Positions 11,507-29,369 of a stretch of DNA of 64,000 nt are shown piece after piece. Position 1 is the stretch's first letter. Each line of letters starts with the position of its first letter. Under the pieces are notes generated by a model, which had not been told where the DNA came from, made no database searches, and worked only from the letters and a program-made list of their open reading frames with translations. The position numbers and the translations under genes were made by a program. Source of the stretch: a virus. The stretch is from IMG/VR virus record IMGVR_UViG_3300030430_004991, positions 1 through 64,000 of that record. One strand, given 5' to 3'.

Positions 11507-11722
11507 TTAACTAGTTGAATTCTTCTCTTTTTGTTCTTTTTTCTTTCGTCGAGCGATTGCACGTTGCTTTGCTCTACGCCGAACATCAGAAGGCTTCTTG
11601 TGGTGCCTTCTATCTTTGACCTCTTCTAGGAGTCCAAGTTTCTTTATTTTTCTTGTAAAACGCCTGATTAGTCTTTCTCCACTCTCATTTCTGCGGGGCT
11701 TGACCTTGTGATTTGTAGCCAT
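11507..11722 (-). CDS. rpsU: Phage-encoded ribosomal protein bS21
   Basis: A 71-residue, very basic protein starting MATNHKVKPRRNESGE at 11722, with AGGAAAG upstream and a TGATG overlap with the preceding gene. Residues 12-50 match the bS21 core: ESGERLIRRFTRKIKKLG, then LLEEVKDRRHHKKPSDVRRR, the family pattern of a helix ending in a Gly and the E(V/L)-x-RR-x(2-3)-KP-x(3)-R block. The Lys/Arg-rich tail is also typical. bS21 binds the small ribosomal subunit near the anti-Shine-Dalgarno region and helps initiation. Phage copies are known from aquatic viruses and are thought to replace the host protein and bias translation. It sits among late head genes rather than early genes, which suggests a role late in infection. 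Confidence 0.9.
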   Translation of the reverse strand: MATNHKVKPRRNESGERLIRRFTRKIKKLGLLEEVKDRRHHKKPSDVRRRAKQRAIARRKKKEQKEKNSTS

Positions 11723-12704: not shown

Positions 12705-13318
12705 CAGTCTTCCAAGATTTTTTTAAATAAATCATCAACGATGTTTTGCTTGGCTTCGTTAATTTTATTCTCGTACATCTTACCTTGTTGCTTAGGATAA
12801 ACATAAGCGTTTGGCGTAGAGGGCTCTGAGACAATGTCAAAGCAAATAAGTTCAAAGTCTTCTTGTACAACAATTCCTCCGCCCATTGATTCTTTAACGG
12901 AGCCAAGTCCACGAGAAGAGATGCCTAATTTGACACCAGCGTTAATCAGGTCCTTAAGAATACGACCAGAAGGAGTGTCAAGAACTTTAATTTTGCCCAT
13001 GACATCTTTGCCTTCCCACCAACAATCTGTGACAATGTGAGACACATTTTTTAAATTAATAACAGAATCATCAGGATGGTCAAGTTCTCCGCATGCACGA
13101 TTATCAGCAACTAATTTTTTGTAGTTGTCCATCTCTCTTTTCAAAACTTCATACGGATAAGATCTTCCATTACCATTCTTTTTATCAGCGGTTTGAATAC
13201 GGCCTGATAGATAAATAACACCATTATCCATCTCTCTTTTTTCTCGTTCGTTAAGAAGGTCTCGACAGATACCGTCTTTACACAGTTCATTAAACTCAGT
13301 TAGCAGAATTTTTTTCAT
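12704..13318 (-). CDS. 21: Prohead core protease (T4 gp21-like)
   Basis: A 204-residue serine protease of the T4 gp21 family, which cleaves scaffold, capsid and core proteins after (L/I)-x-E during head maturation. The conserved features are a beta-rich start (VIYLSGRIQTADKKNGNGR, about 34-52), GELDHP (78-82, catalytic His at 81) and GISSRGLGS (132-140, catalytic Ser). These are the two family signatures. The N-terminus (MKKILLTEFNEL) holds an L-T-E site that could be used in self-processing. The C-terminal helix (NKINEAKQNIVDDLFKK) is typical of the part removed on activation. The gene lies between the portal and scaffold genes as in T4, but the fibre block separates it from the scaffold. 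Confidence 0.92.
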   Translation of the reverse strand: MKKILLTEFNELCKDGICRDLLNEREKREMDNGVIYLSGRIQTADKKNGNGRSYPYEVLKREMDNYKKLVADNRACGELDHPDDSVINLKNVSHIVTDCWWEGKDVMGKIKVLDTPSGRILKDLINAGVKLGISSRGLGSVKESMGGGIVVQEDFELICFDIVSEPSTPNAYVYPKQQGKMYENKINEAKQNIVDDLFKKILED

Positions 13319-13502
13319 TGTGTTTCCTTACCTCTTCTAAAAGTTTATCTATCATAGAATTTAATTTTACATCCGATGTTTTTTCGGCAGCATTTTCTAG
13401 TGCTCTTTCTAAATCAAATAGCGGATCTGATGCTGGTATGTCTTGCATTTCATCATATTCTTCTTTGATTAATTGTTTGAGTCTTTTCGCAGTTAATCTC
13501 AT
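13296..13502 (-). CDS. Small head-core-type protein, function unknown
   Basis: A 68-residue, all-helical charged protein (MRLTAKRLKQLIKEEYDEM at the start; LFDLERALENAAEKTSD and LNSMIDKLLEEVRKH later). GGAG stands 7 bases before the ATG. The N-terminus is nearly the same as that of the protein at 20907-21257, with I-K-E at residues 12-14 in both. It overlaps the prohead protease gene by 23 bases. A small internal core protein comparable to T4 gp67/gp68 is a reasonable guess from size, charge and position between portal and protease, but no homology was recognised. Confidence 0.6.
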   Translation of the reverse strand: MRLTAKRLKQLIKEEYDEMQDIPASDPLFDLERALENAAEKTSDVKLNSMIDKLLEEVRKHNEKNSAN

Positions 13503-13539
13503 TTTTTTTCTCCAATTGTGCGGTCTCTCTCCGCTCGCG

Positions 13540-13593
13540 TCAGGAACCTGAACAGCAACGACGAACAGGTTGTAACATCCATTTTTTAGTCAT
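13540..13593 (-). CDS. Possible 17-residue peptide gene
   Basis: An open frame MTKKWMLQPVRRCCSGS starts at 13593, where the ATG overlaps the stop of the membrane-protein gene, with GGAGAT 4 bases before it. It lies in the one GC-richer gap of the head module. It has a basic start and a CC pair. Overlapping short frames exist in the same gap, so this may be chance; only the ribosome site and coupling favour it. Confidence 0.2.
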   Translation of the reverse strand: MTKKWMLQPVRRCCSGS

Positions 13594-13903
13594 TTTTATC
13601 TCCAGTTCTAAATCCAAAATCATCAACAATCATTGATAGAATGTAACTTGTACCCGCTGAGATACAGCCGCAAACAAATGCATTGATAAATGAATATTCA
13701 AATGTAAATAGTTCCGTAAAACCATTTATCGCCCACATAAACACGCCGGTCCAAAACCCCATACAAAGTGGGCAATGAAATAACGTGTTCCATTTTTTTG
13801 TGTAATCTTTCTTTGGTCTCAAATCCTCAAAAATTTTTCCATAAACGAGAATAAAAGTCATACCGTAACATGCTAAAATAAAATATAATAAATTCACTAT
13901 CAC
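13586..13903 (-). CDS. Small integral membrane protein with HCPLCMGFW motif
   Basis: A 105-residue protein with three likely membrane segments (about 2-22, 46-68 and 74-93). Between the first and second lies HCPLCMGFWTG (about 43-53), the C-x-x-C-x-x-FW-x-G pattern of the DUF1360-type small membrane proteins found in bacteria and phages. The two Cys could bind metal or form a disulphide. The last 12 residues are charged. Function is unknown; effects on the host envelope or superinfection are possible but unsupported. It lies between head genes and may ride along with them. Confidence 0.68.
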   Translation of the reverse strand: MIVNLLYFILACYGMTFILVYGKIFEDLRPKKDYTKKWNTLFHCPLCMGFWTGVFMWAINGFTELFTFEYSFINAFVCGCISAGTSYILSMIVDDFGFRTGDKND

Positions 13904-13905
13904 CT

Positions 13906-14514
13906 CTAGTAAGTGTAACGACCATAAAGGTAAGGCGCAAACATGTTGTTGGTAACAATAGAACCTTTATCGGCCGCCTGCGGGACTTCGCCAAGTTCAG
14001 TAGAGTGCTCTCTGTCCGGTTGTAGTAATGTGTCATCCATCATTTGATCATATGCTTCCATACCTTTCATCATTGGAGTTTCTTCTTTGAACCACTGTGC
14101 GATGTTAACCAAAGCACTTTTTACAGGGTTAAATTTTTTTGACTCTAAAATTTGCGCTTCCATGGAGCCGTAAATGTTACCACCTTGAATTGAGTCATAC
14201 GCTACAATTCCCTTTTTTTTAAGAAATTCAAACATTCTAGACTCTGCGCCGTACACATTATCTGTTAACATTTCTTTAGCAAATGCTACAATTTTTTTCT
14301 TTTCTTGCATTAATACTATGTCAATGTCTTTATGATCAAAAATCATAATGTTTCCATCTAATGATTCCCTAGCATTCAATTCAAAAACATGAGTTTTTAC
14401 GTTGGACTGCATTACTTTTATTGAAACTGTTGGTTTTACATCAACTGATACATCTTTGTCGTCTGATGTTATCACTTCTGTTTCACCTGCCTTTACTAAA
14501 TTAATTCGAACCAT
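13906..14514 (-). CDS. Conserved-type head-region protein, function unknown
   Basis: A 202-residue protein starting MVRINLVKAGETEV. The first 75 residues look like a beta-rich domain. A helical part follows (VLMQEKKKIVAFAKEMLTDN, then SRMFEFLKKKGI), with GGNIYGSMEA at about 112-121. The C-terminus (NNMFAPYLYGRYTY) is aromatic and may be an exposed interaction tail. It lies between portal and prohead protease genes, where T4 has core genes 67 and 68. No family was recognised. A head-assembly role is inferred from position only. Confidence 0.55.
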   Translation of the reverse strand: MVRINLVKAGETEVITSDDKDVSVDVKPTVSIKVMQSNVKTHVFELNARESLDGNIMIFDHKDIDIVLMQEKKKIVAFAKEMLTDNVYGAESRMFEFLKKKGIVAYDSIQGGNIYGSMEAQILESKKFNPVKSALVNIAQWFKEETPMMKGMEAYDQMMDDTLLQPDREHSTELGEVPQAADKGSIVTNNMFAPYLYGRYTY

Positions 14515-15321
14515 CTAAACTTCCTCCAATAAATCTTGTATGTAGAAAAGTTTTTTAACCATTTTTTCAGTCAATGGTTGTTCCTTGAAACTTTTCAATA
14601 CCCCCAATACTTCTGTGAGTTTTTTATGATTATTATCTGTTTGATTTTTGCTAATTAGCTTTTCTTGTATTGTTTCTTTTAGGTGGCTTAGTTCTTCATT
14701 GACAAAAACTTTTAGCCCCATGCCATTATCAGAAAAAGATGTAATGTATTTTGTTAGAAGAAGTTTTTGATTTTCTTTGAGGCAGTTTTTGTATGTGTCG
14801 TTAAACTTACTTACAAAAGTTTTATATGTCAAATTGTCAATGTGCTTCATTTGTTTTTTGCTGGTTTCTGATGGAATTAGCAGTGCTTTAACTTTTGTTT
14901 CTACTATCAATCGATTTTTAGCAGTAGATTTGTTGTCTTGAAACCATGAGCCAACTGTTGCAATATCTTTGTAATTTGAAACAAAATTATTAAAAACATC
15001 ACTGCCCAATTGTTGATTAATTTGAGAAATTAATTTGGTCTGGGCGTTAAAAATAGACTTACGATCCAAAGAGTTATAATCTTTTTTTGTTTCAAACAAA
15101 AAACGATCAGTAAAATCTTTTGTCATTTTATCCTTATTTTCTAAAATTGATTTGTACAAACTAAGGTCTTTATACAGTGGAGACCCCTTGCAGAAGTTTT
15201 CTTTAATAATCTTTGTAATTTTTTGTTTTCTATCGCCAAGTTGTCTTACAACGGCTTTTGTTAATTCTTTTACTAAAGATTCGTAAAGAAAAGCGGTATT
15301 TCTTTTCTTATTGTGTTTCAT
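14515..15321 (-). CDS. Lys-rich helical protein next to portal, function unknown
   Basis: A 268-residue, Lys-rich and almost wholly helical protein (MKHNKKRNTAFLYESLVKEL at the start; KLTEVLGVLKSFKEQPLTEK and KLFYIQDLLEE at the end). The gene starts 14 bases inside the portal gene and ends one base before the next gene. No enzyme motif is visible. The composition and coupling suggest a core or portal-associated protein; this is inference. No known family was recognised. Confidence 0.58.
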   Translation of the reverse strand: MKHNKKRNTAFLYESLVKELTKAVVRQLGDRKQKITKIIKENFCKGSPLYKDLSLYKSILENKDKMTKDFTDRFLFETKKDYNSLDRKSIFNAQTKLISQINQQLGSDVFNNFVSNYKDIATVGSWFQDNKSTAKNRLIVETKVKALLIPSETSKKQMKHIDNLTYKTFVSKFNDTYKNCLKENQKLLLTKYITSFSDNGMGLKVFVNEELSHLKETIQEKLISKNQTDNNHKKLTEVLGVLKSFKEQPLTEKMVKKLFYIQDLLEEV

Positions 15322-17272
15322 CTTCTTTCACCTTTTTTAATAAACTTTCAATTAAGGTATCAACCTGCTTTGATGTATTAAATAGTTTCTGTTCTTCGTT
15401 ATCGTTTATACTTTCTGTTACACCACGAGCGAGAGAGTCTAGTCCACCAAACCCTGATTTTCCATGGAATGTAGTTCTGTACGTGTTTCCATATTCACCT
15501 GTGGCTTGATTTTTTATGTTTTTGCTTCTTCCGCCTTTAGAATAAGAGGTCTGGTGTCTTTTGTATTTTCCTCTTTTATATTTTGGCTCATCGTCTTTTT
15601 TAGCCGGTGGCTCAGCCAGAATGACATCATCTTTTTCATCACCCCCTTCGGCACCAGGGCTCTTGTCCCCAGCAGCCTTGTCTCCGGCATCACCACCTAA
15701 ATCTAATCCTCCACCAGCATCACCACCAGCGCCTAAGTCTCCAAGGCCTCCAGCGTCACCACCTGTGCCTAGGTCTCCAAGACCACCACCGCCACCTCCA
15801 GCATCGGCTCCACCTTGAGCAGCGGCCTCTAGGTTAGCAGAGAATTTTTTATCGTAGAACATTTCTCGCTGCATGCGTATGAACTCTTCTTCGGATAATC
15901 CAAATAAATGTTCTGCTACCCAGCGTTTTGAGAAATAACCATCTGTTGCATTTCCAGCAACAGAGAATTTTTTATCCCAATGTTCGAGTTCTTGTAATTC
16001 TGCAATTTTTGAAGGATTGTTCAGCCCTAAGTCAAAAGACAATAAATCTTCATTTCGAAAGCCCATTGTAAAAAGATGGATGATACCAATCTTTTCAAGT
16101 TCGGCAATAACAACCCTTTGTAGTCTTTGAATTGTTCTAGCAAATCTAATGTCTTTTTGTGCCAACGTTGTTTTATCTTCTGTGGCACCATCACCCATTG
16201 TAAGGTAGGATTGTGGTATCTTAAGAGCAGAAAATAATTTGTCCCTCAAATATTTAACATCTTCAATTGTTGCAGTCATAGCACCACCGGGTAGGTTTAC
16301 AATATCAGTGTTTGACGTACCACGAATAGGAATGTAATAATCTTCTTCAATTGACAGAGGATTGTAACGAAGATCAAGTCGTCCTGTTTTAGGATCGGTA
16401 ACTTGATGTCGCTTCATTTGTGTCATTACTTTTTGCATGTATTGCTCCACATCTTGTGGTGGAATGTTTCCAACATCAATTTTGAATACACGCCTCTCAG
16501 GTGCTCGAACAATACGATAGGCCATCATAGCATCTTCTAGAAGTGTAAGTTGTCTCCAGATTCTGCGTGCCGGTTCTAGAACAGAAGTTCCGTATGGGGC
16601 ATGCTTATCGTTGCCAAGAATGCGAAAATGAGCCATTTGCCAATTTTCCAATGTCATACCAGCAGAGTTCCACTGATATTGCACATAATTTGGATTTGAA
16701 TCATCTTCGCCTTCCAATCTTTCAATCTCTTGCGGAGGAAGACCAATACATGCTCTAATACCAGTGGCCTCTTCGATATCTAAGTAAAGAAATAAATCTC
16801 CGTATTTACACATAGTTCGGCACCACCCAAAAAGATTGTGATTAATGTTGAGAACATTATGGTACAAATCATTTAGAATAGTTTTTATTTCGTCGTTCGG
16901 ACACTTAATTCTTAACATCGGCTGTAGTGCGGAGTGCGTTGTCATTTCGTCTGCGTAAATATCTAACGATGACGCGCATTCCGGTGTATATTCCATTTGA
17001 TCAAAATCAATATAGCGCTCTGCTCTATTTCTATTAGAGATCATGTTAATAGCCATGATGTTCATGGGGTTGTATTCTTGTTTTTTAAATTGTTTACCAC
17101 TAGCAGATGTAAATCTAGAGGAATACATGTCTAGTTGTCGTCTTCTAAGTTGACGACCTTGTTGTGTCCTTCTTTGTGTTATAGGTCCTGAAAATAATCT
17201 TGTTAAAGATCTAAAAAGACTATTCTCTGGATTATAGGGATTCTTTCCCAAATTTCTTTTTTTCTTAGCCAT
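15308..17272 (-). CDS. 20: Portal vertex protein (T4 gp20-like) with Gly-rich extension
   Basis: A 654-residue portal protein, the dodecameric ring at one head vertex through which DNA enters and to which the neck attaches. The core (about 60-480) carries gp20 features: YTPECASSLDIYADEMTT (about 94-111), FGWCRTMCKYGDLFLYLDI, HFRILGNDKHAPYGTSVLEPARRIWRQLTLLEDAMMAYRIVRAPERRVF (about 215-263), and a stretch with YNPLSIEEDYYIPIRG and LPGG. From about 490 to 545 there is a low-complexity run of GGGLGDLG/GGDAGG-type repeats. A basic segment (KYKRGKYKRHQTSY) and an acidic-basic helix at the end follow. This C-terminal extension is unusual for gp20 and probably flexible. The gene lies directly downstream of the terminase gene. 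Confidence 0.93.
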   Translation of the reverse strand: MAKKKRNLGKNPYNPENSLFRSLTRLFSGPITQRRTQQGRQLRRRQLDMYSSRFTSASGKQFKKQEYNPMNIMAINMISNRNRAERYIDFDQMEYTPECASSLDIYADEMTTHSALQPMLRIKCPNDEIKTILNDLYHNVLNINHNLFGWCRTMCKYGDLFLYLDIEEATGIRACIGLPPQEIERLEGEDDSNPNYVQYQWNSAGMTLENWQMAHFRILGNDKHAPYGTSVLEPARRIWRQLTLLEDAMMAYRIVRAPERRVFKIDVGNIPPQDVEQYMQKVMTQMKRHQVTDPKTGRLDLRYNPLSIEEDYYIPIRGTSNTDIVNLPGGAMTATIEDVKYLRDKLFSALKIPQSYLTMGDGATEDKTTLAQKDIRFARTIQRLQRVVIAELEKIGIIHLFTMGFRNEDLLSFDLGLNNPSKIAELQELEHWDKKFSVAGNATDGYFSKRWVAEHLFGLSEEEFIRMQREMFYDKKFSANLEAAAQGGADAGGGGGGLGDLGTGGDAGGLGDLGAGGDAGGGLDLGGDAGDKAAGDKSPGAEGGDEKDDVILAEPPAKKDDEPKYKRGKYKRHQTSYSKGGRSKNIKNQATGEYGNTYRTTFHGKSGFGGLDSLARGVTESINDNEEQKLFNTSKQVDTLIESLLKKVKEDETQ

Positions 17273-17275
17273 TTA

Positions 17276-19422: not shown

Positions 19423-19792
19423 TTTTAGGTCTCCATCCTTTTTTCCATCGTTCTTCGCGTCCTTCTACATATTGAATGTAACATTTTTCACAACAGTCAA
19501 ACTTTGACATATAAACATCATCATTGGACTTGAAAGAGTAAACATTGCATACAGGACAAGAACGTTTAGAATTCTTCGTAATTAGTTTCTTTGGGATAAA
19601 AACTCCATTTATCTCTTCCTCATCGTTTACACCAGATTCTTCGTATTTGTAGAATCCTTTGAGTTCTTCTAAATATTCTTTTTCTTTTTCATCGTTCCAA
19701 CCCTTTTTTGGGTGCTGGATTGTTTCTGCGCCGTATTTTTCTGTTATGGCTTTCTCAACCTTTACGGCATAATTTGGATCTTTACTTTTCAT
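19415..19792 (-). CDS. Zinc-ribbon-like small protein
   Basis: A 125-residue protein. A charged helical N-terminus (KVEKAITEKYGAETIQHPKK) leads to a short metal-binding-like region with CPVC (about 82-85) and CCEKCY (about 102-107), four to five Cys in a zinc-ribbon spacing. The C-terminus is WKKGWRPKNG. It overlaps both neighbours by about 10 bases. A nucleic-acid or protein-binding role is plausible; nothing more specific can be said. Confidence 0.55.
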   Translation of the reverse strand: MKSKDPNYAVKVEKAITEKYGAETIQHPKKGWNDEKEKEYLEELKGFYKYEESGVNDEEEINGVFIPKKLITKNSKRSCPVCNVYSFKSNDDVYMSKFDCCEKCYIQYVEGREERWKKGWRPKNG

Positions 19793-20195
19793 ATTTTCTT
19801 TGCCATTCTTTTGAAATTTTGTCCTCTTTTATTGGCCCACCCTTAGCCCAAGTTCTACATGCTCTGGCGGAGTGGCACTTAAAATGATGCATCCAACAAT
19901 AACCTAATCTTCCTTCTCCATCAGAAGTAGGTCCAGGCATACACTCATCCATTCTAGGTGATATGTCAAACGCCGTACAGTTTCCACACAGAGATTTTTT
20001 TGCAGCCTCTTCTGTTGTGTTCCAATACTCCGCAATGTCTTTCCAGTAATCACCGGGCTCATCAACATTAAGTGGGCCGTACTGAATGTGTTCTGCTTTT
20101 ATAGAGGCGTCACGATTTTTTGTATTTAATTTTAAATCTTGTGTCGCCTCAGGGCAAATCATTTTTTTAAGTCTTTTTAAAATTCTTATTTTCAT
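19782..20195 (-). CDS. Cys-rich small protein, possible metal or Fe-S binding
   Basis: A 137-residue protein. After a basic N-terminus (MKIRILKRLKKMI) the region about 69-118 holds CGNCTAFD, a single Cys in MDEC, GYCWMHHFKCHS and RACRTWAKGGPI. That is six Cys and three His in a compact area, with conserved-looking aromatic residues. The spacing (C-x2-C ... C ... C-x6-C-x5-C) suggests a bound metal or small iron-sulphur cluster. The substrate or partner is unknown. The MKIRILK start is shared with two other proteins of this window. It overlaps the upstream gene by ATGA. Confidence 0.55.
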   Translation of the reverse strand: MKIRILKRLKKMICPEATQDLKLNTKNRDASIKAEHIQYGPLNVDEPGDYWKDIAEYWNTTEEAAKKSLCGNCTAFDISPRMDECMPGPTSDGEGRLGYCWMHHFKCHSARACRTWAKGGPIKEDKISKEWQRKYEK

Positions 20196-20584: not shown

Positions 20585-20910
20585 TCTTCCCTCTCAATGC
20601 CTTTTGATTTTAAGAAATCCTCGGTCTTAACCTTCTTCGAGTCTCTTAAAAACTTATGCTTTTTTTCCTCGAAATTTAGAACGTTTTCAGCAATAGAAGC
20701 GTCTTTGGTTTCCACGAGGTCTTCCAAGTCCTCCACAAGTTCTTCGCGTTGTTTTTCTTCTAAATCTTTCCATTTTTCATAAAATTTTACTTTCTGTTTC
20801 TTTGCGTCTTTTGAGCGTCCAAGCAAATAGAAAGCAATGACAGTAATGATCATTAAGATCCACTGCCAATACTTTATTACAAAATTTACGGTTTTTGCCC
20901 ACCAAGTCAT
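20581..20910 (-). CDS. N-anchored coiled-coil protein, inner-membrane spanin-like
   Basis: A 109-residue protein with one membrane segment near the N-terminus (about 14-31: KYWQWILMIITVIAFYLLG) followed by a highly charged helix (about 35-95) rich in Lys and Glu. This is the layout of an i-spanin (Rz-like): cytoplasmic N-terminus, one membrane span, periplasmic coiled coil. No sequence motif confirms it. It lies between genes for a holin-like protein and a second membrane protein and is coupled to both sides by ATGA overlaps. Confidence 0.45.
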   Translation of the reverse strand: MTWWAKTVNFVIKYWQWILMIITVIAFYLLGRSKDAKKQKVKFYEKWKDLEEKQREELVEDLEDLVETKDASIAENVLNFEEKKHKFLRDSKKVKTEDFLKSKGIEREE

Positions 20911-21257
20911 TGGTTTTCCGCATTCTCAATTTTCTGCAGAACCATAGCTTTAACGTCTTCGTCAAAATCACTTAAATTATCGCTGACATCCTCGACACTA
21001 GAAATGTCCCTTAAATCGATTTCTGCGATCGAGCCCCCGGCTTCTATGTATAGGATACCGTAGTCACCATAAACGTCCGCGAGATTTTCCAAACTGGCGA
21101 CACCAGTTTCACTCTTGGTATATTTTAATGCTGCTTCAATACTGTCCTCGTCTTGTTCGTCTTGTGAAATCACATCAACATGGACACCATCCGATTCTGT
21201 TAGTCTTGTCAATTCTTCTTTGATTAATTTTTTTAATAATTTTGTTGTTAATTTCAT
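20907..21257 (-). CDS. Small acidic protein with prohead-type N-terminus
   Basis: A 116-residue protein starting MKLTTKLLKKLIKEELTRL at 21257, with AAGGA 7 bases upstream. The rest is acidic (ISQDEQDEDSIEAALKYTK, then DLRDISSVEDVSDNLSDFDEDVK). A short beta region lies at about 62-80. The start is nearly identical in pattern to the protein at 13296-13502, with an I-K-E site at residues 12-14. It may be an internal head protein cut by the gp21 protease. No family was recognised. Confidence 0.58.
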   Translation of the reverse strand: MKLTTKLLKKLIKEELTRLTESDGVHVDVISQDEQDEDSIEAALKYTKSETGVASLENLADVYGDYGILYIEAGGSIAEIDLRDISSVEDVSDNLSDFDEDVKAMVLQKIENAENQ

Positions 21258-21261
21258 TTTT

Positions 21262-21525
21262 TTATCCTTTCCAAACTTTAGCAACGTCAATAACTGACTG
21301 TCCACCAATGTACATGGCAGCAATCATCGCCCAAGTGTCAGGATCGAGTCCGGACCAGATGAGCAAAGCAGTTGCACTAGCAAAAACAAGAAGTTTACGA
21401 GATACGGCTTTTCCAAGAGCCTCATCAACTACTCCTAGCTTTTGTTCTTTGCAACATTCGCAATGTTCGCAGCAATCACACTTGTGGTCATGCTCGCAAT
21501 TTTCCTCACAATTTTCATTATGCAT
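21262..21525 (-). CDS. Holin-like membrane protein with Cys/His-rich N-terminus
   Basis: An 87-residue protein. Residues 1-30 hold seven Cys and three His (CEENCEHDHKCDCCEHCECC), a dense metal-binding-like cluster. Two hydrophobic segments follow (about 42-57 VSRKLLVFASATALLIWSGL and 62-80 WAMIAAMYIGGQSVIDVA). The second matches the W-x(4-6)-YxGGQ-x-x-D pattern of small phage holin-like proteins. A holin would open the inner membrane at lysis timing. The unusual N-terminus could sense metal or redox state or stabilise the protein. It overlaps the exonuclease gene end by 8 bases and has GGAG upstream. Confidence 0.55.
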   Translation of the reverse strand: MHNENCEENCEHDHKCDCCEHCECCKEQKLGVVDEALGKAVSRKLLVFASATALLIWSGLDPDTWAMIAAMYIGGQSVIDVAKVWKG

Positions 21526-23593
21526 TTCTGTTCTCCTTTAAAATTTTAATTTTTATTCTTTTTCTATTTTCTTGAACACTAAAGCTATTGCCTGGTGTTC
21601 CTATATTGGTTTGATACCAATTTATAACATCTTGTTCCGTGAAGTTTAAAAACTTGTAAAATTTATTGATCTTCTCAGGAGTAGCTACAGTACCTTCTAA
21701 GTTTTCTTTTTCCTTTAAAGCAGCGTCTATAAGTTTTTTTGCTGCTTCTTTATCAATGTTATTCTGTCTAAGATAGTTAAATTCTAAATCTTGCACGAAT
21801 TTGTCGACTATTTTTTTTCTAATTTCTCCAGCGCCCTTTGTCTTTTCAAACCCTATGGCCGCAGGAGTTCCAATACCAGCGTGTGTTTTTAGACTTTTTG
21901 TCTTTTTGCCAAGAAATACAGGGCTATTTTTAACAATTCTGTACGTGCGAATAATTTGTTTGTTGTCCATCATTTCAACAAAGTCATAAGTTTTTTCATA
22001 GATTTCATAAAATTTTTGCATTGCCGGTATAAAAACAGCGGCTAATTTTTCACAATCATCATCTGCTGTGTGTGTTTGTTTTGGAGCATTTTCGATAAAT
22101 GCTTTCATCAGAGTCTCTAGTTTTCCTTTTGATTTTCCAGATTTTTTTAAATTTTTTAAAATTACCCTTACTTCATCAATTTGAGGCTTGATCTTTATAG
22201 TGTTGTGTTCACCGATCTCTATAAAATCTTCTATAGCTTTTTTTAGTTTTTTTGTTCTCTCTTCATCTGGTTGTTGTGTATCTAGTATTTCTTGCATCTC
22301 TTTAATTCGAAAATGTGTACGATATGCTAATCCATAAAAATACACTAGTGTTTTAAAATATTTTATCATCAATGAGAATAAAAATCTCGTATCATACACA
22401 TAAGAGTTACGAAAATTTTGTGTATTGTTAATCCCGTGAAACTCACATCTTGCAATTACAAAAGGATTGTCAAAAGAAATTATGTTTTGACCAACTAATA
22501 CATAGTCACCATTTGGTTGTGATTGATTCGTTGATGGCGCTCCTTGTTGATCAATAAACTTCATCATGCCCTCAAGCGCTTCTTTCTCTGAGACAGTGCC
22601 TTCGTAACCTTTATTACGATATTTTTTTAACGGAAATTCATCATAATTTGTAAATACTTTATTTTCTTCTGTGGTTTGTTTGAGAAAAAGAATAATTTTT
22701 TCAACAGTACTTTTTACAAAGTCATTCCCTCTATTGTTATAGTATGTTGAAATGCCGCCATCAACAGTATCCTCATTGAAAATATTGTGATAAAAAAAGA
22801 TCAAATCTTCTTTAGATGGATTTGTGTTCTCAATTATTTTTTTTAATCTTTCTTTCGGAAGGAGAGGTCCTTCTTCGCCTTGTCCGTCTTTATCTTTTTC
22901 AATCTTTTCGCTTTCTTCTTCGTCTTTATCTTTTTCAATCTTTTCGCTTTCTTCTTCGTCTTTATCTTTTTCAATCTTTTCGCTTTCTTCTTCTTCAAAA
23001 TCAATTACTGATATATATTTCTCTACGAATTTTTTAAACGCACTAGCAGTGCCTTTTTTGCCAAGTAGAGCCTTTTTTTTGTTTTTTAGGTTATAGTGAA
23101 GAAAAATATGAAAAAATAATCCTAAAATTGATTTTACATCATCTCTATTTTTAGCGGGTATTTCAAGTTGATCGTCTCGTATAAATTCTTTAAATTCGGT
23201 ATATTCATTTTCTGGTGTTTGGTCTAAAATTTTAGCTCTTTTTTCTTTGGCTTTTTTGGATCTATCACTATATTCATCTGTTATGTCGGCCTTTGCGACA
23301 TAGTAATCATTTGGGTTTTCTGCGCTAATTGTGCTTGGGTCACCGTTTGGAGAATATTTTAAAATAGCGATTTGGTGAATCATGTCTGAAATTTGTCCGA
23401 ATTCTCCTCTTTTTCTTCGAAGACCTGTTGTTTCAAGGTCGTAAAACAAAAGATCTTTGTTAAATAAACTCTCTAATACTTCTTTTTCTTTAATTAAAAG
23501 ACCTAAGTTTCCAAAAAGTTCTTCTACTGGTAGAAGACTTGTCGGAGATTTTCCGGTCCTCTCTGATAATTGTTTTTTGATTCTAATTTTCAT
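21518..23593 (-). CDS. DEDD-family 3'-5' exonuclease-like protein
   Basis: A 691-residue protein with a DnaQ-like exonuclease fold. The first motif DLETTG is at 52-57 (Asp and Glu metal ligands). The middle motif is in the region YVLVGQNIISFDNPFVIARC (about 365-385). The last motif is HTADDDCEKLA, giving the general base His and the final Asp of a DEDDh enzyme. The domain is interrupted by long charged insertions, including three perfect 12-residue repeats (EEESEKIEKDKD). The basic N-terminus MKIRIKKQLSERTG and an I-K-E site near 34-36 recall head-targeted proteins of this window. The substrate may be DNA ends in replication or recombination, next to the SbcCD gene. Its ribosome site is buried in a hairpin. 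Confidence 0.72.
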   Translation of the reverse strand: MKIRIKKQLSERTGKSPTSLLPVEELFGNLGLLIKEKEVLESLFNKDLLFYDLETTGLRRKRGEFGQISDMIHQIAILKYSPNGDPSTISAENPNDYYVAKADITDEYSDRSKKAKEKRAKILDQTPENEYTEFKEFIRDDQLEIPAKNRDDVKSILGLFFHIFLHYNLKNKKKALLGKKGTASAFKKFVEKYISVIDFEEEESEKIEKDKDEEESEKIEKDKDEEESEKIEKDKDGQGEEGPLLPKERLKKIIENTNPSKEDLIFFYHNIFNEDTVDGGISTYYNNRGNDFVKSTVEKIILFLKQTTEENKVFTNYDEFPLKKYRNKGYEGTVSEKEALEGMMKFIDQQGAPSTNQSQPNGDYVLVGQNIISFDNPFVIARCEFHGINNTQNFRNSYVYDTRFLFSLMIKYFKTLVYFYGLAYRTHFRIKEMQEILDTQQPDEERTKKLKKAIEDFIEIGEHNTIKIKPQIDEVRVILKNLKKSGKSKGKLETLMKAFIENAPKQTHTADDDCEKLAAVFIPAMQKFYEIYEKTYDFVEMMDNKQIIRTYRIVKNSPVFLGKKTKSLKTHAGIGTPAAIGFEKTKGAGEIRKKIVDKFVQDLEFNYLRQNNIDKEAAKKLIDAALKEKENLEGTVATPEKINKFYKFLNFTEQDVINWYQTNIGTPGNSFSVQENRKRIKIKILKENRNA
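22886..22993 (-). repeat. Three tandem 36-bp coding repeats
   Basis: Three direct copies of a 36-base unit, perfect to the eye, lie in frame inside the exonuclease gene and encode (EEESEKIEKDKD)3. The unit is a multiple of three, so copy-number change would keep the frame. The charged repeat probably forms an exposed helical linker. Confidence 0.9.
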
Positions 23594-23596
23594 AAT

Positions 23597-23630
23597 AAAA
23601 AATCCTATTTAGCTTTTACACTAAATAGGA
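23597..23630 (-). terminator. Terminator hairpin that also hides a ribosome binding site
   Basis: The sense strand has a perfect 10-base inverted repeat (TCCTATTTAG / CTAAATAGGA) with an 8-base loop, followed by six T. It would end transcripts from the SbcCD gene. The right arm contains AGGA, the only plausible ribosome site of the exonuclease gene, 9 bases before its ATG. The left arm contains the CTATTTA motif seen before other genes. Confidence 0.85.
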
Positions 23631-23639
23631 CGTTATTTG

Positions 23640-26600
23640 TTAAATGTTTACCTTGGCATAGCCATCAATTTTATCAATGTCTATCGTCATGTCCACCACA
23701 TCTTTTAGATGATCAAGGTGAGAGATAATCAAAACTGTTTTGAATTGGTTCTTTATCATCTGCAATAGTCTTGTGAACCCTTCCATGTGTTCTTGATCTA
23801 ATGCCGTTGCCGGTTCGTCAAGAATAAACAGTTCGGACTTTGGAAGATTGGTTATCGCAATCATCGCAAGACGTATGGCCATCGAAGCAATTGTCTTTTC
23901 TGCTCCTGATCCCATGGACAACGGACGAGCCGCATAGTTGGGATGTTTGATGGAGAGTTCAAGTTTGTTGTCATGATTCTCAAAGAACACTTCAAAGTCA
24001 ACAATGTTGGCTAAGATCTTTGCGATCTCTTGATTGATAATCGGTAGCTTTTGCTGAATGATCTCGTATGAAATACCATTAGCATGCATGCAAGTCGTGT
24101 AGATGTCGAAAGCACGATACTCGTTCATAACATCTTTGTATTCATTCTTCTCGTTGTAAAGACCACGAATAACTTCTTTCATTGCCGCTTCTTCCACAAG
24201 ATACTCTTGAGAAAGTTTATTGCATTCCTTCAGTGTTACCTTGTTCTCTTTAATTTTCTTTATAAGAGCCTTTTGGTCTCCGTACAAAGATTCCTTATTC
24301 TCGATAGCTTCACGATTATCTTCATATTCTTTAGCTTTCGCTTCGAGAGCATCAATCTCGTTAGTTAACAAAGCAATGGTTGCTTCGTTTTTCTGAATAG
24401 ACATTTTTTGTCTTTCCATGTTAATCTCACAAGAGTCAATCTCAGATCTAAGATCATTAAACTTTTGGATGTTATTTTGAATTGTTTTAATGTCATACTC
24501 TTCAAGTTTAACTGTCGCTTGATGGAGAGACTCGGCGAGATCATCTAACAAATTCATGTTATAGGGCAGATCTGCTTTTGCTTTCTCTGCTTGTTTCACA
24601 AACTCATTGTCACAACAGAACTCACAGTTTGGATCATACTTGTGATTATGAAGCATCGCTGCTGTTTTGTCTAAGTTTTTTAACACGGTCTTCTGGTGCT
24701 TCACTTGTTGCTCAAAGGCTTTGACAAGTTCTTCTTGGTGCTTTGCTTCTTTTAGCAGAGACATTAGGCGATCATATTGTTTACTGTCGACCTGTTCACA
24801 TGTTTGTTCATAAAACTTTTCTAGTCTCTCAACATGTTCTTGTGAATGTAAATTCTGTGAGAGCAGTTTAGTTTTCTTTGTTTTCTTAAACGCTATCTCT
24901 TTGGAAACTTGATTGATGTCAATAATCTCCGCAGGAATTGCGTCGATTGTTTTCTTAACCTCCGCAAGTTCAAGTTCAAACTTTTCTATAGAACAAGTCA
25001 GTTTTTCACATTTATTAACCTGCTCGTCGATGTCCATTCGAATGTCCTCTAGTGTTTCTGTTTTTTTGCGTATTTGTTCGTCAAACTTCTTGCTCTCCAT
25101 GCGCTTAATTACACCACGAAGATCAGCAGCATCCTTACGAGCCAATTTATACTTTTGATCAAAGATCTGCAGGTCTAGAAATTTAGCGATAATTTCTTTT
25201 CGTTTAGTAGAGCCCTCTCGCAAGAAAGACATAGAGTCTAGTTGAGATGCCATTGACGTTAAAAAGAAGTCATCAATTGTACCGAAGTGCTTACGAATGT
25301 TAGCATCGGTTTCGTTTCTGGTTGTACCATTCTTTGACTCAAAGATACCAGCAGTTGTTTTAGAAAAATCTAGATCTACTTTGGATTCTATTGTTTCTTT
25401 CCCTTTTAGTTTCTTTGTGTACTTATTAAGGTTTCGAGTAATCTCGAAAGCGTCATGACCTGCTTCAAGTTTTATTTTACACTTGGCATACTGTTTGTTT
25501 TGGTTGATGATGTGAACATTCTTTCGCTCTCCTTTCGAAGTTGTATTATAAATGTTAAATAACACACTGTCGATAATAGAAGACTTTCCTGAATAATTTT
25601 TACCAAAGATTCCGACAAGTCCGGATAATTTTTCAAAATTAATCTTATTCTTCTCGCCGTAGTTGAAGAGGTTATCCCACTCAATCTCTTTAATTTTCCA
25701 AACAACATTACGTGATACCTCCTCTGATTCTTCAACAATTTGATTGTATTTTTTATTTAACTCTAAAATCTTATCCATAACGCCATCGTCCATGTCAAGT
25801 TCGCTGCAATACTGTTTTATGTATTTTTCTTGAACAGAAAGATCTCGCAGGTTCTCATTCAAAACTGCTTTACCTATCAAAGATGTAGACGAAGAGTTGG
25901 TGGTGCCATTGTTAATAAAAGAAACAGAATAGGGTTGCCATTTCTTTTGGCAATAATCACACGCTGCTCTTAATTTCATAGGCGAAATGTTAGAAGAGGC
26001 ACGTATTCTAAGACGACAGCCCTTTGGCACTATTGTGTTGGGTACTTGTCCTTCCGGTGTTAAGTCTATTGTCACGAACGGTCTGGGGTTTAGTACTGAG
26101 ACATGCTGACAATCCCAATCGTATTTATCTCGTATGTTCCACATGAGAAAACCTTTGTTAATTGACTCGCCAAAGTTTTGTTGAATCGTAGAGCCAGCAT
26201 ATCTTACTCGTCCTTTGAGATCCATTTTCTGTTGCTTGTGAATGTCACCCAGCATGCTAAAGTCAAAATCGCTGAAAATATCAATAGAATCTTCGCCTTC
26301 TTCAATAGTGTAACCTTGTGAGGTTTGGCATCCGTGAATAGACCCGTGATACAAGCCGATATTAATACACTCTCTGTTAGTCGGTTTAACCCAGTTTTCT
26401 CTATCAAAGACCGATAGAACGTTGAGAGTGATCTTTTCATTTATTTTTGTTTCTCCGGAATTTTTAAGAAGATGAATATTTTTGTGACCCAATGCATCTA
26501 CAATCGGAGAAATTGCATCCTGCCTAGTGTCGTTCTTAAGATTACCATCATGGTTTCCTAGTATAATATAAGTAGGAGCAATGTCTCCCAAGTTATGCAA

Positions 26601-26789
26601 AAAACTTGCACACATTTGGAAAAATTCCGGTGATAATTGCGTTTTAGTGTGTGCGATGTCACCGGTGTGTACGATAATGTCGGGAGACATTTGCCGCAGT
26701 TTTTTATAAAGATCTTCGAACGCTAGTTTGTATTCGTAGTGATACTTTAAATTTCTAATGTGTGTATCTGATATATGTGCTATTTTCAT
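23640..26789 (-). CDS. Single-chain Mre11-Rad50 (SbcD-SbcC, T4 gp47-gp46) nuclease
   Basis: A 1049-residue fusion of the two subunits that are separate in T4 (gp47, gp46) and bacteria (SbcD, SbcC). Residues 1-345 are the phosphodiesterase: DTH (8-10), GDIAH (43-47), GNHD (78-81), YHGS (147-150), GDIH (181-184). From about 365 the Rad50 part begins: Walker A GKNYSGKS (396-403), a long coiled coil, zinc hook CEFC (722-725), second coiled coil, signature LSMGSGAEK (957-965), and Walker B FILDEPATALD (988-998). The complex resects DNA ends for recombination-dependent replication. The order Mre11 then Rad50 keeps the natural operon order. There is no sign of frameshift. A terminator follows and a SprT-like gene precedes, both in the same transcript. 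Confidence 0.95.
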   Translation of the reverse strand: MKIAHISDTHIRNLKYHYEYKLAFEDLYKKLRQMSPDIIVHTGDIAHTKTQLSPEFFQMCASFLHNLGDIAPTYIILGNHDGNLKNDTRQDAISPIVDALGHKNIHLLKNSGETKINEKITLNVLSVFDRENWVKPTNRECINIGLYHGSIHGCQTSQGYTIEEGEDSIDIFSDFDFSMLGDIHKQQKMDLKGRVRYAGSTIQQNFGESINKGFLMWNIRDKYDWDCQHVSVLNPRPFVTIDLTPEGQVPNTIVPKGCRLRIRASSNISPMKLRAACDYCQKKWQPYSVSFINNGTTNSSSTSLIGKAVLNENLRDLSVQEKYIKQYCSELDMDDGVMDKILELNKKYNQIVEESEEVSRNVVWKIKEIEWDNLFNYGEKNKINFEKLSGLVGIFGKNYSGKSSIIDSVLFNIYNTTSKGERKNVHIINQNKQYAKCKIKLEAGHDAFEITRNLNKYTKKLKGKETIESKVDLDFSKTTAGIFESKNGTTRNETDANIRKHFGTIDDFFLTSMASQLDSMSFLREGSTKRKEIIAKFLDLQIFDQKYKLARKDAADLRGVIKRMESKKFDEQIRKKTETLEDIRMDIDEQVNKCEKLTCSIEKFELELAEVKKTIDAIPAEIIDINQVSKEIAFKKTKKTKLLSQNLHSQEHVERLEKFYEQTCEQVDSKQYDRLMSLLKEAKHQEELVKAFEQQVKHQKTVLKNLDKTAAMLHNHKYDPNCEFCCDNEFVKQAEKAKADLPYNMNLLDDLAESLHQATVKLEEYDIKTIQNNIQKFNDLRSEIDSCEINMERQKMSIQKNEATIALLTNEIDALEAKAKEYEDNREAIENKESLYGDQKALIKKIKENKVTLKECNKLSQEYLVEEAAMKEVIRGLYNEKNEYKDVMNEYRAFDIYTTCMHANGISYEIIQQKLPIINQEIAKILANIVDFEVFFENHDNKLELSIKHPNYAARPLSMGSGAEKTIASMAIRLAMIAITNLPKSELFILDEPATALDQEHMEGFTRLLQMIKNQFKTVLIISHLDHLKDVVDMTIDIDKIDGYAKVNI

Positions 26790-26797
26790 GTTACCTC

Positions 26798-27148
26798 CTA
26801 ATAGTTTCTAGTTTTATAGCGACCACGGCCACTGTGGATTTTGCCAACAAAGCCAACTCGCTTCATTTCTTCTTTCCACTCTTTGCCGTGGTTGTGATAA
26901 GGTCTTTCCTCATAAAAAACTTCAACAGCGTGATGGCACATCTCGTGCAACAAAATGTTGAGTTTTTGGTAGTGCGTCAGTTTTTTGTCTATTTCTATGT
27001 AAGACTCTGTCCCTTCTTCTTCATCAGGGTAATGATAAAGACCTTCCGCACGCTCAGCGCTTAAGTCTCTTATTTTTACAGGGATCTTTGTTAGTTTTCC
27101 ATCCCAATATTTTTTATTAAATTCATTAAACTTATTTGTCCAGTACAT
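26798..27148 (-). CDS. SprT-like zinc metallopeptidase
   Basis: A 116-residue protein of the SprT type. The active site HEMCHH (68-73) contains HExxH, and the third zinc ligand is probably His87 in HGKEW. The N-terminal part (WTNKFNEFNKKYWDGKL) matches the start of SprT/Spartan catalytic domains. SprT-like proteins in eukaryotes (Spartan) cut DNA-protein crosslinks; this phage copy could clear proteins from DNA ends before the SbcCD nuclease, as both genes share one transcript. GGAGG precedes the ATG by 5 bases. A sigma70-like promoter lies just upstream (27178-27206). Confidence 0.82.
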   Translation of the reverse strand: MYWTNKFNEFNKKYWDGKLTKIPVKIRDLSAERAEGLYHYPDEEEGTESYIEIDKKLTHYQKLNILLHEMCHHAVEVFYEERPYHNHGKEWKEEMKRVGFVGKIHSGRGRYKTRNY

Positions 27149-27177
27149 GTTTCCTCCTCAAGAATCTGTATACATAT

Positions 27178-27206
27178 ATAATATCACGTTATCTTCGACT
27201 TGTCAA
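27178..27206 (-). promoter_or_regulatory. Sigma70-like promoter for SprT-SbcCD operon
   Basis: The minus strand reads TTGACA, 17 bases, TATTAT, with TG one base before the -10 (extended -10) and a CGTG block shared with two nearby promoters. It stands 30 bases before the SprT-like gene, in the divergent gap to the only plus-strand gene. Confidence 0.85.
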
Positions 27207-27216
27207 GTATTTTTTT

Positions 27217-27225
27217 CTATTTATT
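27217..27225 (+). promoter_or_regulatory. CTATTTATT motif before the plus-strand gene
   Basis: On the plus strand CTATTTATTTATAA lies about 30 bases before the GTG of the small membrane-protein gene, in the same orientation relative to the gene as the motifs before minus-strand virion genes. The promoter role is inferred. Confidence 0.35.
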
Positions 27226-27251
27226 TATAACAAGACTTGGGAGGGTTAGAT

Positions 27252-27428
27252 GTGGAATATGTCGTTTTTGGTATTATTGTTATTGTTGCTGGTGGTCTTG
27301 CCGGTTATGAATTGATAGAGGGTATTATTGCGGGTATTAAGTTAGATGGAGATGATGAAGAAATTTTTGCTCCAATTGCAGTCTTCTCTTTGTTAGTTTT
27401 TTTTGCCGGCTTATCATATTTTGGCTAA
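27252..27428 (+). CDS. Small two-span membrane protein, only plus-strand gene
   Basis: A 58-residue protein read from the GTG at 27252, with GGAGGG 6 bases upstream. Two hydrophobic segments (about 3-24 and 41-57) are separated by a short acidic loop (KLDGDDEEIF). The second segment ends in FFAGLSYFG at the C-terminus. It has no known family. The gene runs against all its neighbours and its 3' end overlaps the end of the primase gene by 15 bases. Small membrane proteins in phage early regions often act on the host envelope, but nothing specific supports that here. Coding status is likely, given the ribosome site and composition, but not certain. Confidence 0.55.
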   Translation: MEYVVFGIIVIVAGGLAGYELIEGIIAGIKLDGDDEEIFAPIAVFSLLVFFAGLSYFG

Positions 27429-28349
27429 TTGGTTGTAAAAATTAATTTCATCTAAATCTGGCTCTATCGCTTGAGACATTCTAGATAGAAACTGTTTGCG
27501 TGTCATAGACCCTACATCTTCAACATTCGAAGTATCAATAATCTTGACATCGACATCGTATTTGAATAGGGACTTTATCATGTAGTCTTGCTTCTTCTTA
27601 GCATCTTCATCTAAAGCAAGATACACTGGGGAATCATTAAGAACAATCGCTTGAAATAGCTTACTCTCTTCGCGCAATGTTGAGCCAAGAATAGGAATTG
27701 CATTTTGTCCGGCGATAATTGCATCGAACAAACCTTCCACCAAGACAACCGGTTCATCCCAATCTACAAACAATTCATTAAACACAACGTTTTTACTTAT
27801 TGGAGGATTCAAGTACTTCATTCTGTGTCCTACATAAGAACGAGCAATAAAATAGTTGAGATTACCTGAGTTATTAAATGACGGCACAATTATTCTTCCG
27901 CGATAGCGTCCCTCAGGACAATACCCAATCTTCCACATAAGTATTTCTTTCTTGGTGATTCCTCTTTCGTATAGGTATTCCAAAGGCGCCTTAGAAGTCT
28001 TTGGCAGTCTTTTGTTACACAAAGACACGAAATGCGGTGGTAGTTCCGTAACTTGTTCGATTTCTTCATCATTCATCTCCATAAACATTTGGTCAAATTC
28101 AGAAAGATCTAGACGGCCATCGAGTTCTAGCCATTTTTGTTTTTGTTGATAAGTACCAAACTTTCGTACAAGTCTGTAAATATTTTTACCGCGCGTATCA
28201 CAAACCCAACATTTAAATGCATTAACACCAAAATTGATTGACATTTTCTTTTTATGATGTCCACAAAATGGACATTCAAATAAAAATTCACTTGATGATT
28301 GCCTATAGCCACCAAGAATGTCTCGTATAATTCTTAATTTTTCTTCCAT
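27414..28349 (-). CDS. DNA primase, DnaG/T4 gp61-like
   Basis: A 311-residue primase that makes RNA primers for lagging-strand synthesis. The N-terminal zinc finger has CPFC (26-29) and CWVC (47-50). The RNA polymerase core includes RYRGRIIVPSFN (about 148-159), then the TOPRIM motifs VVLVEGLFDAI (201-211, catalytic Glu at 205) and YLALDEDA (243-250). The protein is shorter than bacterial DnaG and lacks a helicase-binding extension, as in T4 gp61. It has its own promoter at 28370-28398 and GGAGGAAA before the ATG. Its end overlaps the convergent plus-strand gene. Confidence 0.93.
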   Translation of the reverse strand: MEEKLRIIRDILGGYRQSSSEFLFECPFCGHHKKKMSINFGVNAFKCWVCDTRGKNIYRLVRKFGTYQQKQKWLELDGRLDLSEFDQMFMEMNDEEIEQVTELPPHFVSLCNKRLPKTSKAPLEYLYERGITKKEILMWKIGYCPEGRYRGRIIVPSFNNSGNLNYFIARSYVGHRMKYLNPPISKNVVFNELFVDWDEPVVLVEGLFDAIIAGQNAIPILGSTLREESKLFQAIVLNDSPVYLALDEDAKKKQDYMIKSLFKYDVDVKIIDTSNVEDVGSMTRKQFLSRMSQAIEPDLDEINFYNQLAKI

Positions 28350-28369
28350 GTTTCCTCCGTCTCAAATAC

Positions 28370-28398
28370 ATATTATCACGGAGTCTAAAAATTGTCAA
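28370..28398 (-). promoter_or_regulatory. Sigma70-like promoter for primase
   Basis: The minus strand reads TTGACA, 17 bases, TAATAT, with CGTG and TG directly before the -10. The -35 overlaps the end of the resolvase gene: its TGA stop is part of TTGACA. The -10 is weaker than in the two neighbouring promoters. Confidence 0.75.
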
Positions 28399-28910
28399 AT
28401 ATTTATTTTGGAAAATCCAGCCAATGCCACAACAATCGCATCTGCCATGTCATCTGTCCCGGGTTTAGGGTTTCCATGCCTAGTTAACTCTACTATAAAA
28501 TGTTTTGGATATTTATTTTCAACCCATTCAATAATTTTCTTTTTAGTATCTTCGCCACGCTTAATTTTGAGACCAACAAGGCCCCTAGCTTTATTCGCCG
28601 CGATAAGTTCTGGGTTACGGCCAAATACTCTACGAACTGCAAAAGAACACATGCCATTAAATCTCTGGAGTTTTGCCATGGTACCAGCAGTTGTTTTACC
28701 ACCACCAAACATTGTGAAAGGTTCTTCTACGAAAACGTTTTTAATTTTATACTCTTTACTAATACCTTTTAAGAATTGGAAAAAAATTTCTGCTCTGTCT
28801 TCTAACTGCAGGGGCTTAAACTTCATTACATTGTGTTCAATTAAATTCTTATCATAATCTAAAATACAATAACCTATTTTACTTGTGCTAACATCTAAAC
28901 CTAAAATCAT
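28395..28910 (-). CDS. RuvC-like Holliday junction resolvase
   Basis: A 171-residue RNase H-fold nuclease. GLDVST (4-9) gives the first Asp, VFVEEP (59-64) the Glu, and DDMADAIVVA (153-162) the last acids; these are the RuvC catalytic motifs. It would cut recombination intermediates before packaging. T4 uses the unrelated endonuclease VII (gp49), so this phage uses a different solution. A strong sigma70-like promoter lies 17 bases upstream. It is the first gene of the replication and recombination block. Confidence 0.88.
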   Translation of the reverse strand: MILGLDVSTSKIGYCILDYDKNLIEHNVMKFKPLQLEDRAEIFFQFLKGISKEYKIKNVFVEEPFTMFGGGKTTAGTMAKLQRFNGMCSFAVRRVFGRNPELIAANKARGLVGLKIKRGEDTKKKIIEWVENKYPKHFIVELTRHGNPKPGTDDMADAIVVALAGFSKINI

Positions 28911-28926
28911 AAAAAACCTCTAATTT

Positions 28927-28955
28927 ATTATAACACGTTTTTATAGATTTGTCAA
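28927..28955 (-). promoter_or_regulatory. Consensus sigma70 promoter for resolvase gene
   Basis: The minus strand has a perfect TTGACA, 17-base spacer and perfect TATAAT, with TG one base before the -10 and CGTG as in the other two promoters. It lies directly after the stop of the 28959-29369 gene. It is likely to be strong and read by host RNA polymerase. Confidence 0.93.
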
Positions 28956-28958
28956 GTA

Positions 28959-29369
28959 TTATTTTGGGGGAACGTAAGGTTTTTCTTTCTGCACTAAACT
29001 TTCGGCCCATTTTAAATCCTCTGGTGATGCTTTTTTAAGAAAATCATCAATTGCCTTCAATAAATTTTGGGCATCTAAGTTTAATCTATCGGGTTTTTCA
29101 TTCTCAGGTGTTTTTGACACGATTTCCAAATCTTCTAGGGCCTTTGAGTATCCTATCGCTTTATCAATGTCTTTGGTTTTTTTTACTCTATTTTTTGCAA
29201 AAGCGTGTGCTACTTCAACTGTTTTAGCGTCATACCCCTCAACTCCGGCTTGTGCTGGTCTCCCAAGCATTCCGCCCATAGCCAAGCCACCAGCCAAAGC
29301 AATGTCTTTTAAGGACTCTTCTATTTTTTTTATAGTTTCCTTGTTTTCCTTTAAAATTCTTATTTTCAT
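28959..29369 (-). CDS. Small protein with MKIRILK start, function unknown
   Basis: A 136-residue protein. The first 25 residues form a basic helix (MKIRILKENKETIKKIEE). A Gly/Ala/Met-rich stretch follows (about 25-43: DIALAGGLAMGGMLGRPAQAG), which could be a membrane or signal segment. The remainder is helical and ends KPYVPPK. The start matches the N-termini of the proteins at 19782-20195 and 21518-23593. It may be an internal head protein. No family was recognised. It is the last gene of the right-hand virion block before the promoter of the replication genes. Confidence 0.55.
   Translation of the reverse strand: MKIRILKENKETIKKIEESLKDIALAGGLAMGGMLGRPAQAGVEGYDAKTVEVAHAFAKNRVKKTKDIDKAIGYSKALEDLEIVSKTPENEKPDRLNLDAQNLLKAIDDFLKKASPEDLKWAESLVQKEKPYVPPK

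Follow-up and report, generated by a model that had tools for sequence, protein, structure and literature searches.

Outside a small number of model phages, little is known about which proteins are injected together with the DNA, because these proteins have no fold in common, and the locus studied here raises the question of whether such proteins carry a common N-terminal tag instead. The locus lies in the window, a stretch of 64,000 nucleotides (positions 1 to 64,000) of the IMG/VR virus record IMGVR_UViG_3300030430_004991, which is a 79,297-base fragment of a T4-type virus with terminase, portal and S77 prohead protease genes. A terminase comparison placed it closest, among isolates, to Flavobacterium phage immuto and Microcystis phage Mel-JY01 (44-46% identity). 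An original prediction, made from the window alone, had pointed to two proteins (13296-13502 and 20907-21257) that begin with MRLTAKRLKQLIKEEYDEM and MKLTTKLLKKLIKEELTRL, respectively, with I-K-E at residues 12-14 in both, and had suggested that this start is a capsid-targeting peptide removed by the prohead protease. All of the sequences named in that prediction are present in the window, as is the protease gene (Table 1). We found the same N-terminus, here called type A, on hundreds of otherwise dissimilar proteins in related viruses, and we consider it likely that type A is a capsid-targeting propeptide that is removed by the S77 prohead protease, and that a second tag, here called type B, has the same role and is interchangeable with it.

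To represent the relatives of this virus, 80 viral contigs were collected by the protease alone, with genes taken from a simple open reading frame (ORF) script in which the first ATG is the start, and further contigs were added by means of a DNA pattern. Since contigs L082-L199 were chosen by the tag pattern, the numbers of type A tags in them cannot serve as independent evidence, and the key statistics were therefore taken from the protease-selected set. The type A consensus, MK[IL]TKxxLKxIIKEELxxV[LM]xE, comprises about 22 residues. Its core, [LIVM]xx[LIVM][LIVM][KR]E[ED], has 98 matches in the 80 protease-selected contigs and the window, of which 76 begin at residue 8. In the protease-selected and pattern-found contigs together, 323 distinct proteins have the tag at their start, and a clustering of their bodies (residue 27 onward, blastp, E < 1e-3), in which distant homologs may have been split, placed them in 259 clusters, 221 of them with one member. 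Thus, one start serves hundreds of proteins without detectable mutual similarity.

The type A tag is real and chance is excluded. It was identified in 75 of the 1154 proteins in the protease-selected relatives but in none of the 1666 proteins from 120 control viral contigs of equal guanine-cytosine content (p about 2e-30), and type B was identified in 22 of the 1154 proteins and likewise in none of the controls. Furthermore, the type A pattern matches 20 of 24 large records, on one strand only in each and with a maximum of 18 copies per record, while the reversed pattern has 0 matches in the same records. A chance likeness of AT-rich, lysine-rich starts is thus refuted for types A and B, and its probability is negligible; it could at most apply to proteins that begin with MKIRI, which amount to 8 of 2631 in the relatives and 0 of 1666 in the controls (p = 0.03, a marginal difference). 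A search of bacterial and archaeal genomes (257 Gb) recovered the type A pattern from 4 contigs only, all of them belonging to metagenome-assembled genomes, and both of these metagenome-assembled genomes with several tag matches also encode an S77 protease. In practice, the type A tag is virus-specific.

Many tagged genes are adjacent to each other. In contig L197 (113,597 bases), which has its S77 gene at 15.0 kb, the 20 kb that follow shortly downstream (about 18.6-38.7 kb) contain 18 tag matches and form a dense cargo island. Such adjacency is what would be expected if the tag were a functionless by-product of the duplication or shuffling of gene starts. However, 32% of the codons differ between identical tag residues within a contig, the DNA upstream of tagged genes (-60 to -21) is no more similar within contigs than between them (0.28 vs 0.26), and the tag is kept across distant contigs. 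It is thus the peptide that has been kept and not the DNA, the synonymous codon differences being a sign of selection at the peptide level, and the duplication hypothesis is largely refuted and very improbable.

The conservation of type A has a distinct end point. Most positions between 2 and 16 carry about 2-4 bits of information; the values are still raised until residue 22 but close to background from residue 23 onward. Glu is found at residue 22 in 52%, and [LIVM]-x-E occupies residues 20-22 in 113 of 253 cluster representatives, where independent columns would give 75.6; for [LI]xE the corresponding numbers are 83 and 55. Anywhere inside residues 16-32, [LIVM]-x-E is found in 209 of the 253 representatives, and inside residues 46-62 in 57. 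Type A thereby ends at the (L/I)-x-E pattern of prohead protease sites, a pattern match that defines a predicted site. Likewise, 311 of 320 proteins have E14 when the anchor leaves out residues 13-16, and the conservation of E14 and E22 therefore yields two candidate protease sites, one after each. The original prediction placed the cut after I-K-E14. A cut after residue 22 is more probable, since the conservation ends there and since, in the kinase-family alignment described below, E14 and E22 pair with the two Glu of ESWRRFLKE.

The tag has the character of an amphipathic helix, with a mean helical moment of 0.38 vs 0.25 in the bodies and a charge of +3.9 over residues 2-13, followed by -3.1 over residues 14-24. 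We therefore also considered an uncut helix that docks on the prohead core or some other virion part, with (L/I)-x-E reflecting the helix register. The regular hydrophobic spacing of an amphipathic helix would alone fix the Leu/Ile-Glu distances, and the vertically conserved start of the gene at 11722-12138 looks as if it were functional in the mature protein. However, in type A the conservation breaks off abruptly at Glu22, in type B it drops past the Glu of the FLxE motif, and the number of [LI]xE at residues 20-22 exceeds the column-independent expectation, for which reasons we find an uncut helix unlikely. In one protein of 485 residues (L120:69-1523), which has the tag at its N-terminus, a tag-like sequence (GFNEDITKEDIQKxxQEE) occurs twice more, once internally and once at the C-terminus. 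The T4 Alt protein is processed at both ends (PMC9026906).

Type B was found by comparing the bodies of tagged proteins with their untagged relatives. It is defined by W-x-x-[FY]-[LIVM]-x-E, with MKLLxENWRKFLxE as a fuller form of about 14 residues. Among 2628 proteins, 50 type B matches fall within 20 residues of the start, compared with 10 at other positions, and the bodies that carry it represent up to 42 clusters. In the window, the gene directly downstream of the protease (12135-12704) has a type B start that was overlooked in the original prediction. The body of its product is probably a GNAT acetyltransferase, as suggested by hhalign comparisons to the tagged GNAT family, in which E was 1e-7 for the complete protein and 1.2e-4, at a probability of 56%, when the tag was left out. 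The two types are interchangeable on homologous kinases and GNATs: P-loop kinases begin with MKITNKQLRQIIKEELNRVLRE in L063 and with MKTKLIIESWRRFLKEE, MIMESWRRFLKEE or MKLLLEGWRKYLNE in L002, L006 and L181, and among the GNAT acetyltransferases the one in L095 has type A, with MKLIMENWRKFLTE-like starts in ten others aligned. In phage immuto (L200, MW353177), a third start, M..(F)DLKKFLVENKLTxNSxLLKE, is present on at least four proteins, along with type A-like starts (MKKSQLRQIIKEAL), at record positions 1803-2318 and 103762-118887. Proteins of this phage, which grows on Flavobacterium sp. LMO8, with a type A-like or an FDLKKFLVE-type start are QQO92331, QQO92332, QQO92334, QQO92346, QQO92349 and QQO92350.

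The tagged genes are also associated with the prohead protease. They are found predominantly on its upstream side: they represent 95 of the 710 genes located up to 10 kb upstream of the protease, 8 are found up to 2 kb downstream, and none among the 217 genes farther downstream. The S77 protease was identified in 19 of 25 tag contigs longer than 70 kb vs 2 of 12 control contigs (p = 0.001). At the site that reads IVSE/AN and LISE/AN in the isolates, the capsid protein of the lineage carries LLRE/AN, so that the same protease specificity is expected. The tag could alternatively be an assembly or localization helix with a function outside the virion, such as the recruitment of early or late proteins to a replication, membrane or host complex, and several of the cargos are enzymes that would be sensible in the infected cell too, including the exonuclease, the kinases and the acetyltransferase. 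The clustering of tagged genes at the prohead protease, the association with S77 and the exchange with a tag that has the spacing of the T4 capsid-targeting sequence all speak against this alternative, which we judge to be improbable.

The IPIII protein in the T4 record begins with MKTYQEFIAEA, and amber scanning has indicated that residues 4 and 7 serve mainly in targeting and residues 8 and 10 in processing, with cleavage by gp21 after L/I-x-E (PMC9026906). The spacing of the proven IPIII targeting sequence recurs in type B and in each half of type A. In this spacing, a hydrophobic residue is followed by two residues, a hydrophobic residue, L/I, any residue and E; the residues in question are W8, F11, V12 and E14 in the 12135-12704 protein, and L8, I/L11, I12 and E14 in type A. 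As a positive control, the core motif was searched for in the first 26 residues of 54 T4 genes (44 kb), and the 4 that contained it were IPIII, gp2, gp68 and gp24. All 4 belong to the head or the DNA end, and for three of them cleavage by gp21 has been described. The tags resemble the T4 capsid-targeting sequence in that they are short N-terminal peptides with an (L/I)-x-E end, on differing mature bodies, in phages with an S77 protease. However, T4 uses a tag of 10 residues for a few internal proteins, whereas the marine phages use tags of about 22 and 14 residues for hundreds of cargos. Unlike in T4, there are moreover two distinct, interchangeable tags, and type A is longer, resembling a tandem double T4 core motif.

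The unrelated bodies, the (L/I)-x-E end, the nearby protease gene and the exchange with a tag of IPIII spacing are the reasons why we favor a T4-like capsid-targeting function, which the original prediction had proposed and which is the best reading of the IKEE start. In function, the tags most likely correspond to this T4 sequence, although the form seen here is new and far more extensive. Some observations count against this interpretation. The likeness to the T4 sequence is one of pattern only, in a peptide that is too short for a homology test, and the core motif alone is enriched just 2-3 times at the N-termini in immuto, T4 and this genome. The nearest isolates show variants of the tag only, 6 of the 25 tag contigs, which may be fragments, show no S77 protease, and the 13296-13502 protein is without a second (L/I)-x-E at residues 20-22. 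A tblastn search with the consensus tag against isolated phages gave one weak match only, and no report of the core strings of the tag was found in the open-access literature, subscription journals being outside the search.

We hypothesize that the basic-then-acidic amphipathic helix of type A docks the cargo on the prohead core during head assembly, and that the S77 prohead protease then cuts after (L/I/V)-x-E, most likely after Glu22 and possibly after Glu14 too. The mature cargo would remain in the head and would probably enter the host together with the DNA, and the shorter type B would perform the same job. In the window, type A would have this function on the 13296-13502 and 20907-21257 proteins and type B on the 12135-12704 protein, while the tag-like start of the 11722-12138 protein would be permanent.

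N-terminal sorting signals have been described in other phages. In phage P1, the N-terminal signal of DarB, which is longer than 9 and at most 30 residues, suffices for the entry of a reporter into the capsid, and the DarB cargo reaches the host (PMC9024508). The N-termini of the P1 Dar proteins have no consensus (PMC9024508), whereas one consensus extends over hundreds of proteins in the marine phages. In the giant phages phiKZ, SPN3US and 201phi2-1, propeptides are known from head and ejection proteins; those at the N-termini of head proteins are cut after x-x-E by a gp21-related protease, and two of the propeptides in SPN3US are 20 and 24 residues long (PMC10052503). However, most giant-phage propeptides exceed 100 residues and the phiKZ motif is S/A-x-E (PMC9026906), and no report of a single short tag shared by hundreds of unrelated proteins came to our notice. 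On balance, we lean toward a broader hypothesis in which a large set of uncultured marine T4-like phages uses modular, interchangeable address tags to load varied accessory proteins for delivery to the host, with tags that were derived from, or mimic, the family of the 11722-12138 protein, and with an injected proteome that is open-ended. If the tag is a capsid-targeting sequence, the first 22 residues would predict packaged proteins, most of which are now hypothetical, in many uncultured marine phages, and the tag would represent a compact, naturally interchangeable label for filling phage heads with proteins.

The candidate injected proteome would include exonucleases, acetyltransferases, nucleotide or polynucleotide kinases, a zeta-toxin-like kinase, an L,D-transpeptidase and a FliG-C domain. 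Most tagged proteins do not belong to a known family, and the 131 longer ones have few Pfam matches (RNase_T, AAA_33 kinase, GNAT, YkuD, LRR and FliG_C), a lack of families that might fit the expectation for injected accessory proteins. To these, the type B cargo adds a zeta-toxin-like kinase (L177:8194-9843) and a guanylate-kinase-like protein (L173:3090-3686). YkuD was identified in one tagged alignment member (Pfam E 2.6e-20). In L187:6258-7055 (minus strand), type A is located on a protein that has the YkuD L,D-transpeptidase motif and could target the cell wall of the host. In L094:117-491, the type A-tagged protein has a FliG C-terminal domain (Pfam E 1.8e-8) and might, once injected, mimic the motor switch; a search for FliG_C across the whole records confirmed the L094 case only.

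The DnaQ-type exonuclease in the window (21518-23593) had been suggested to be packaged and injected. The canonical tag is missing in this protein, as well as in larger homologs in L196 and L138, but related exonucleases in L006, L061, L067 and L188 are tagged, and packaging is thus plausible for the relatives. The tagged exonuclease gene in L006 is located about 9 kb upstream of the protease, which matches the layout of the window, and its product aligns to the window protein with 27% over 230 residues (E 1e-8 in a pairwise test). The protein scan for relatives of the exonuclease gave none, and the homology emerged from the comparison with the tagged exonucleases.

The 11722-12138 protein has LIKE at residues 13-16, as had been pointed out, but we rejected it as a user of a mobile tag. 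It is encoded by a single core gene that is kept in nearly all relatives, where it adjoins or lies near the protease, and its tag-like start is explained by the vertical conservation of one gene. Most members of the family begin with LKPLIKECIKEVIFEE, which fits the tag when shifted by two residues, and E24 is invariant in the 32 aligned members. An AlphaFold model of the window protein contains an N-terminal helix at residues 3-39, predicted with low confidence (pTM 0.25). We infer that the 11722 product probably belongs to the head core and that the tag was modeled on it. Directly downstream of its gene is a gene for a bS21-like ribosomal protein of 71 residues (11507-11722, minus strand), which is kept in about 65 relatives, and Mel-JY01 likewise has RpsU annotated near the protease.

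The starts of the form MKIRI(L/K)K are present on the three proteins for which they had been noted (19782-20195, 21518-23593 and 28959-29369), but they do not match type A or type B and are rare in the relatives, and were therefore rejected as the same tag. They consist of an alternation of basic and hydrophobic residues and are not helical, and 6 of the 8 proteins with an MKIRI start have (L/I)-x-E in residues 5-16, where 22% would be expected. Homologs of the 19782-20195 protein have variable starts, mostly without (L/I)-x-E, and no homolog of the 28959-29369 protein was found among the relatives. Since the 7/7 test of these starts was devised after inspection of the data, a weak third class of tags is at most possible and unproven.

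Table 1. Features of the window discussed in the text.
Feature	Position	Strand	Evidence or remark
gp23-like major capsid protein, N-terminal part, cut by record end	1-249	-	alignment
Conserved 138-residue protein, tag-like start LKPLIKECVKEVIFEE	11722-12138	-	alignment of 32 members
Type B-tagged 189-residue protein, MDKIFENWNRFVNE	12135-12704	-	WxxF[LIVM]xE; residues 1-14 = 12663-12704
S77 prohead protease, T4 gp21 family	12704-13318	-	Pfam PF03420 E 3.2e-32; PHROG 207 E 8.8e-60
Type A-tagged 68-residue protein, MRLTAKRLKQLIKEE	13296-13502	-	tag residues 1-22 = 13437-13502
Cys-containing protein, MKIRILKR start; rejected as tagged	19782-20195	-	homologs in L035, L051, L135, L152, L188
Type A-tagged 116-residue protein, MKLTTKLLKKLIKEELTRLTE	20907-21257	-	tag residues 1-22 = 21192-21257
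DnaQ-type exonuclease, starts MKIRIKKQLSERTGK (MKIRIKKQ)	21518-23593	-	Pfam RNase_T E 2.8e-8
136-residue protein, MKIRILKE start; not accepted as same tag	28959-29369	-	

The gene at 13296-13502 is preceded by the ribosome site GGAG, and its homolog in L013:9792-9998 is likewise located immediately upstream of the protease. The protease of the window has an L-T-E at residues 6-8. The 20907-21257 protein has L-T-E at residues 19-21, and its body has no match in the family searches. An alternative TTG start at 21323 is given for this gene in the ORF listing, but the ATG at 21257, having its own GGA-type ribosome site, is the better start. A small membrane-like protein (FILACYGMTFILVYGKIFEDLRPKKDYTKKWNTLFHCPLC; 13586-13903, minus strand) is also encoded in this region, and many of the relatives have it at a short distance upstream of their protease gene.

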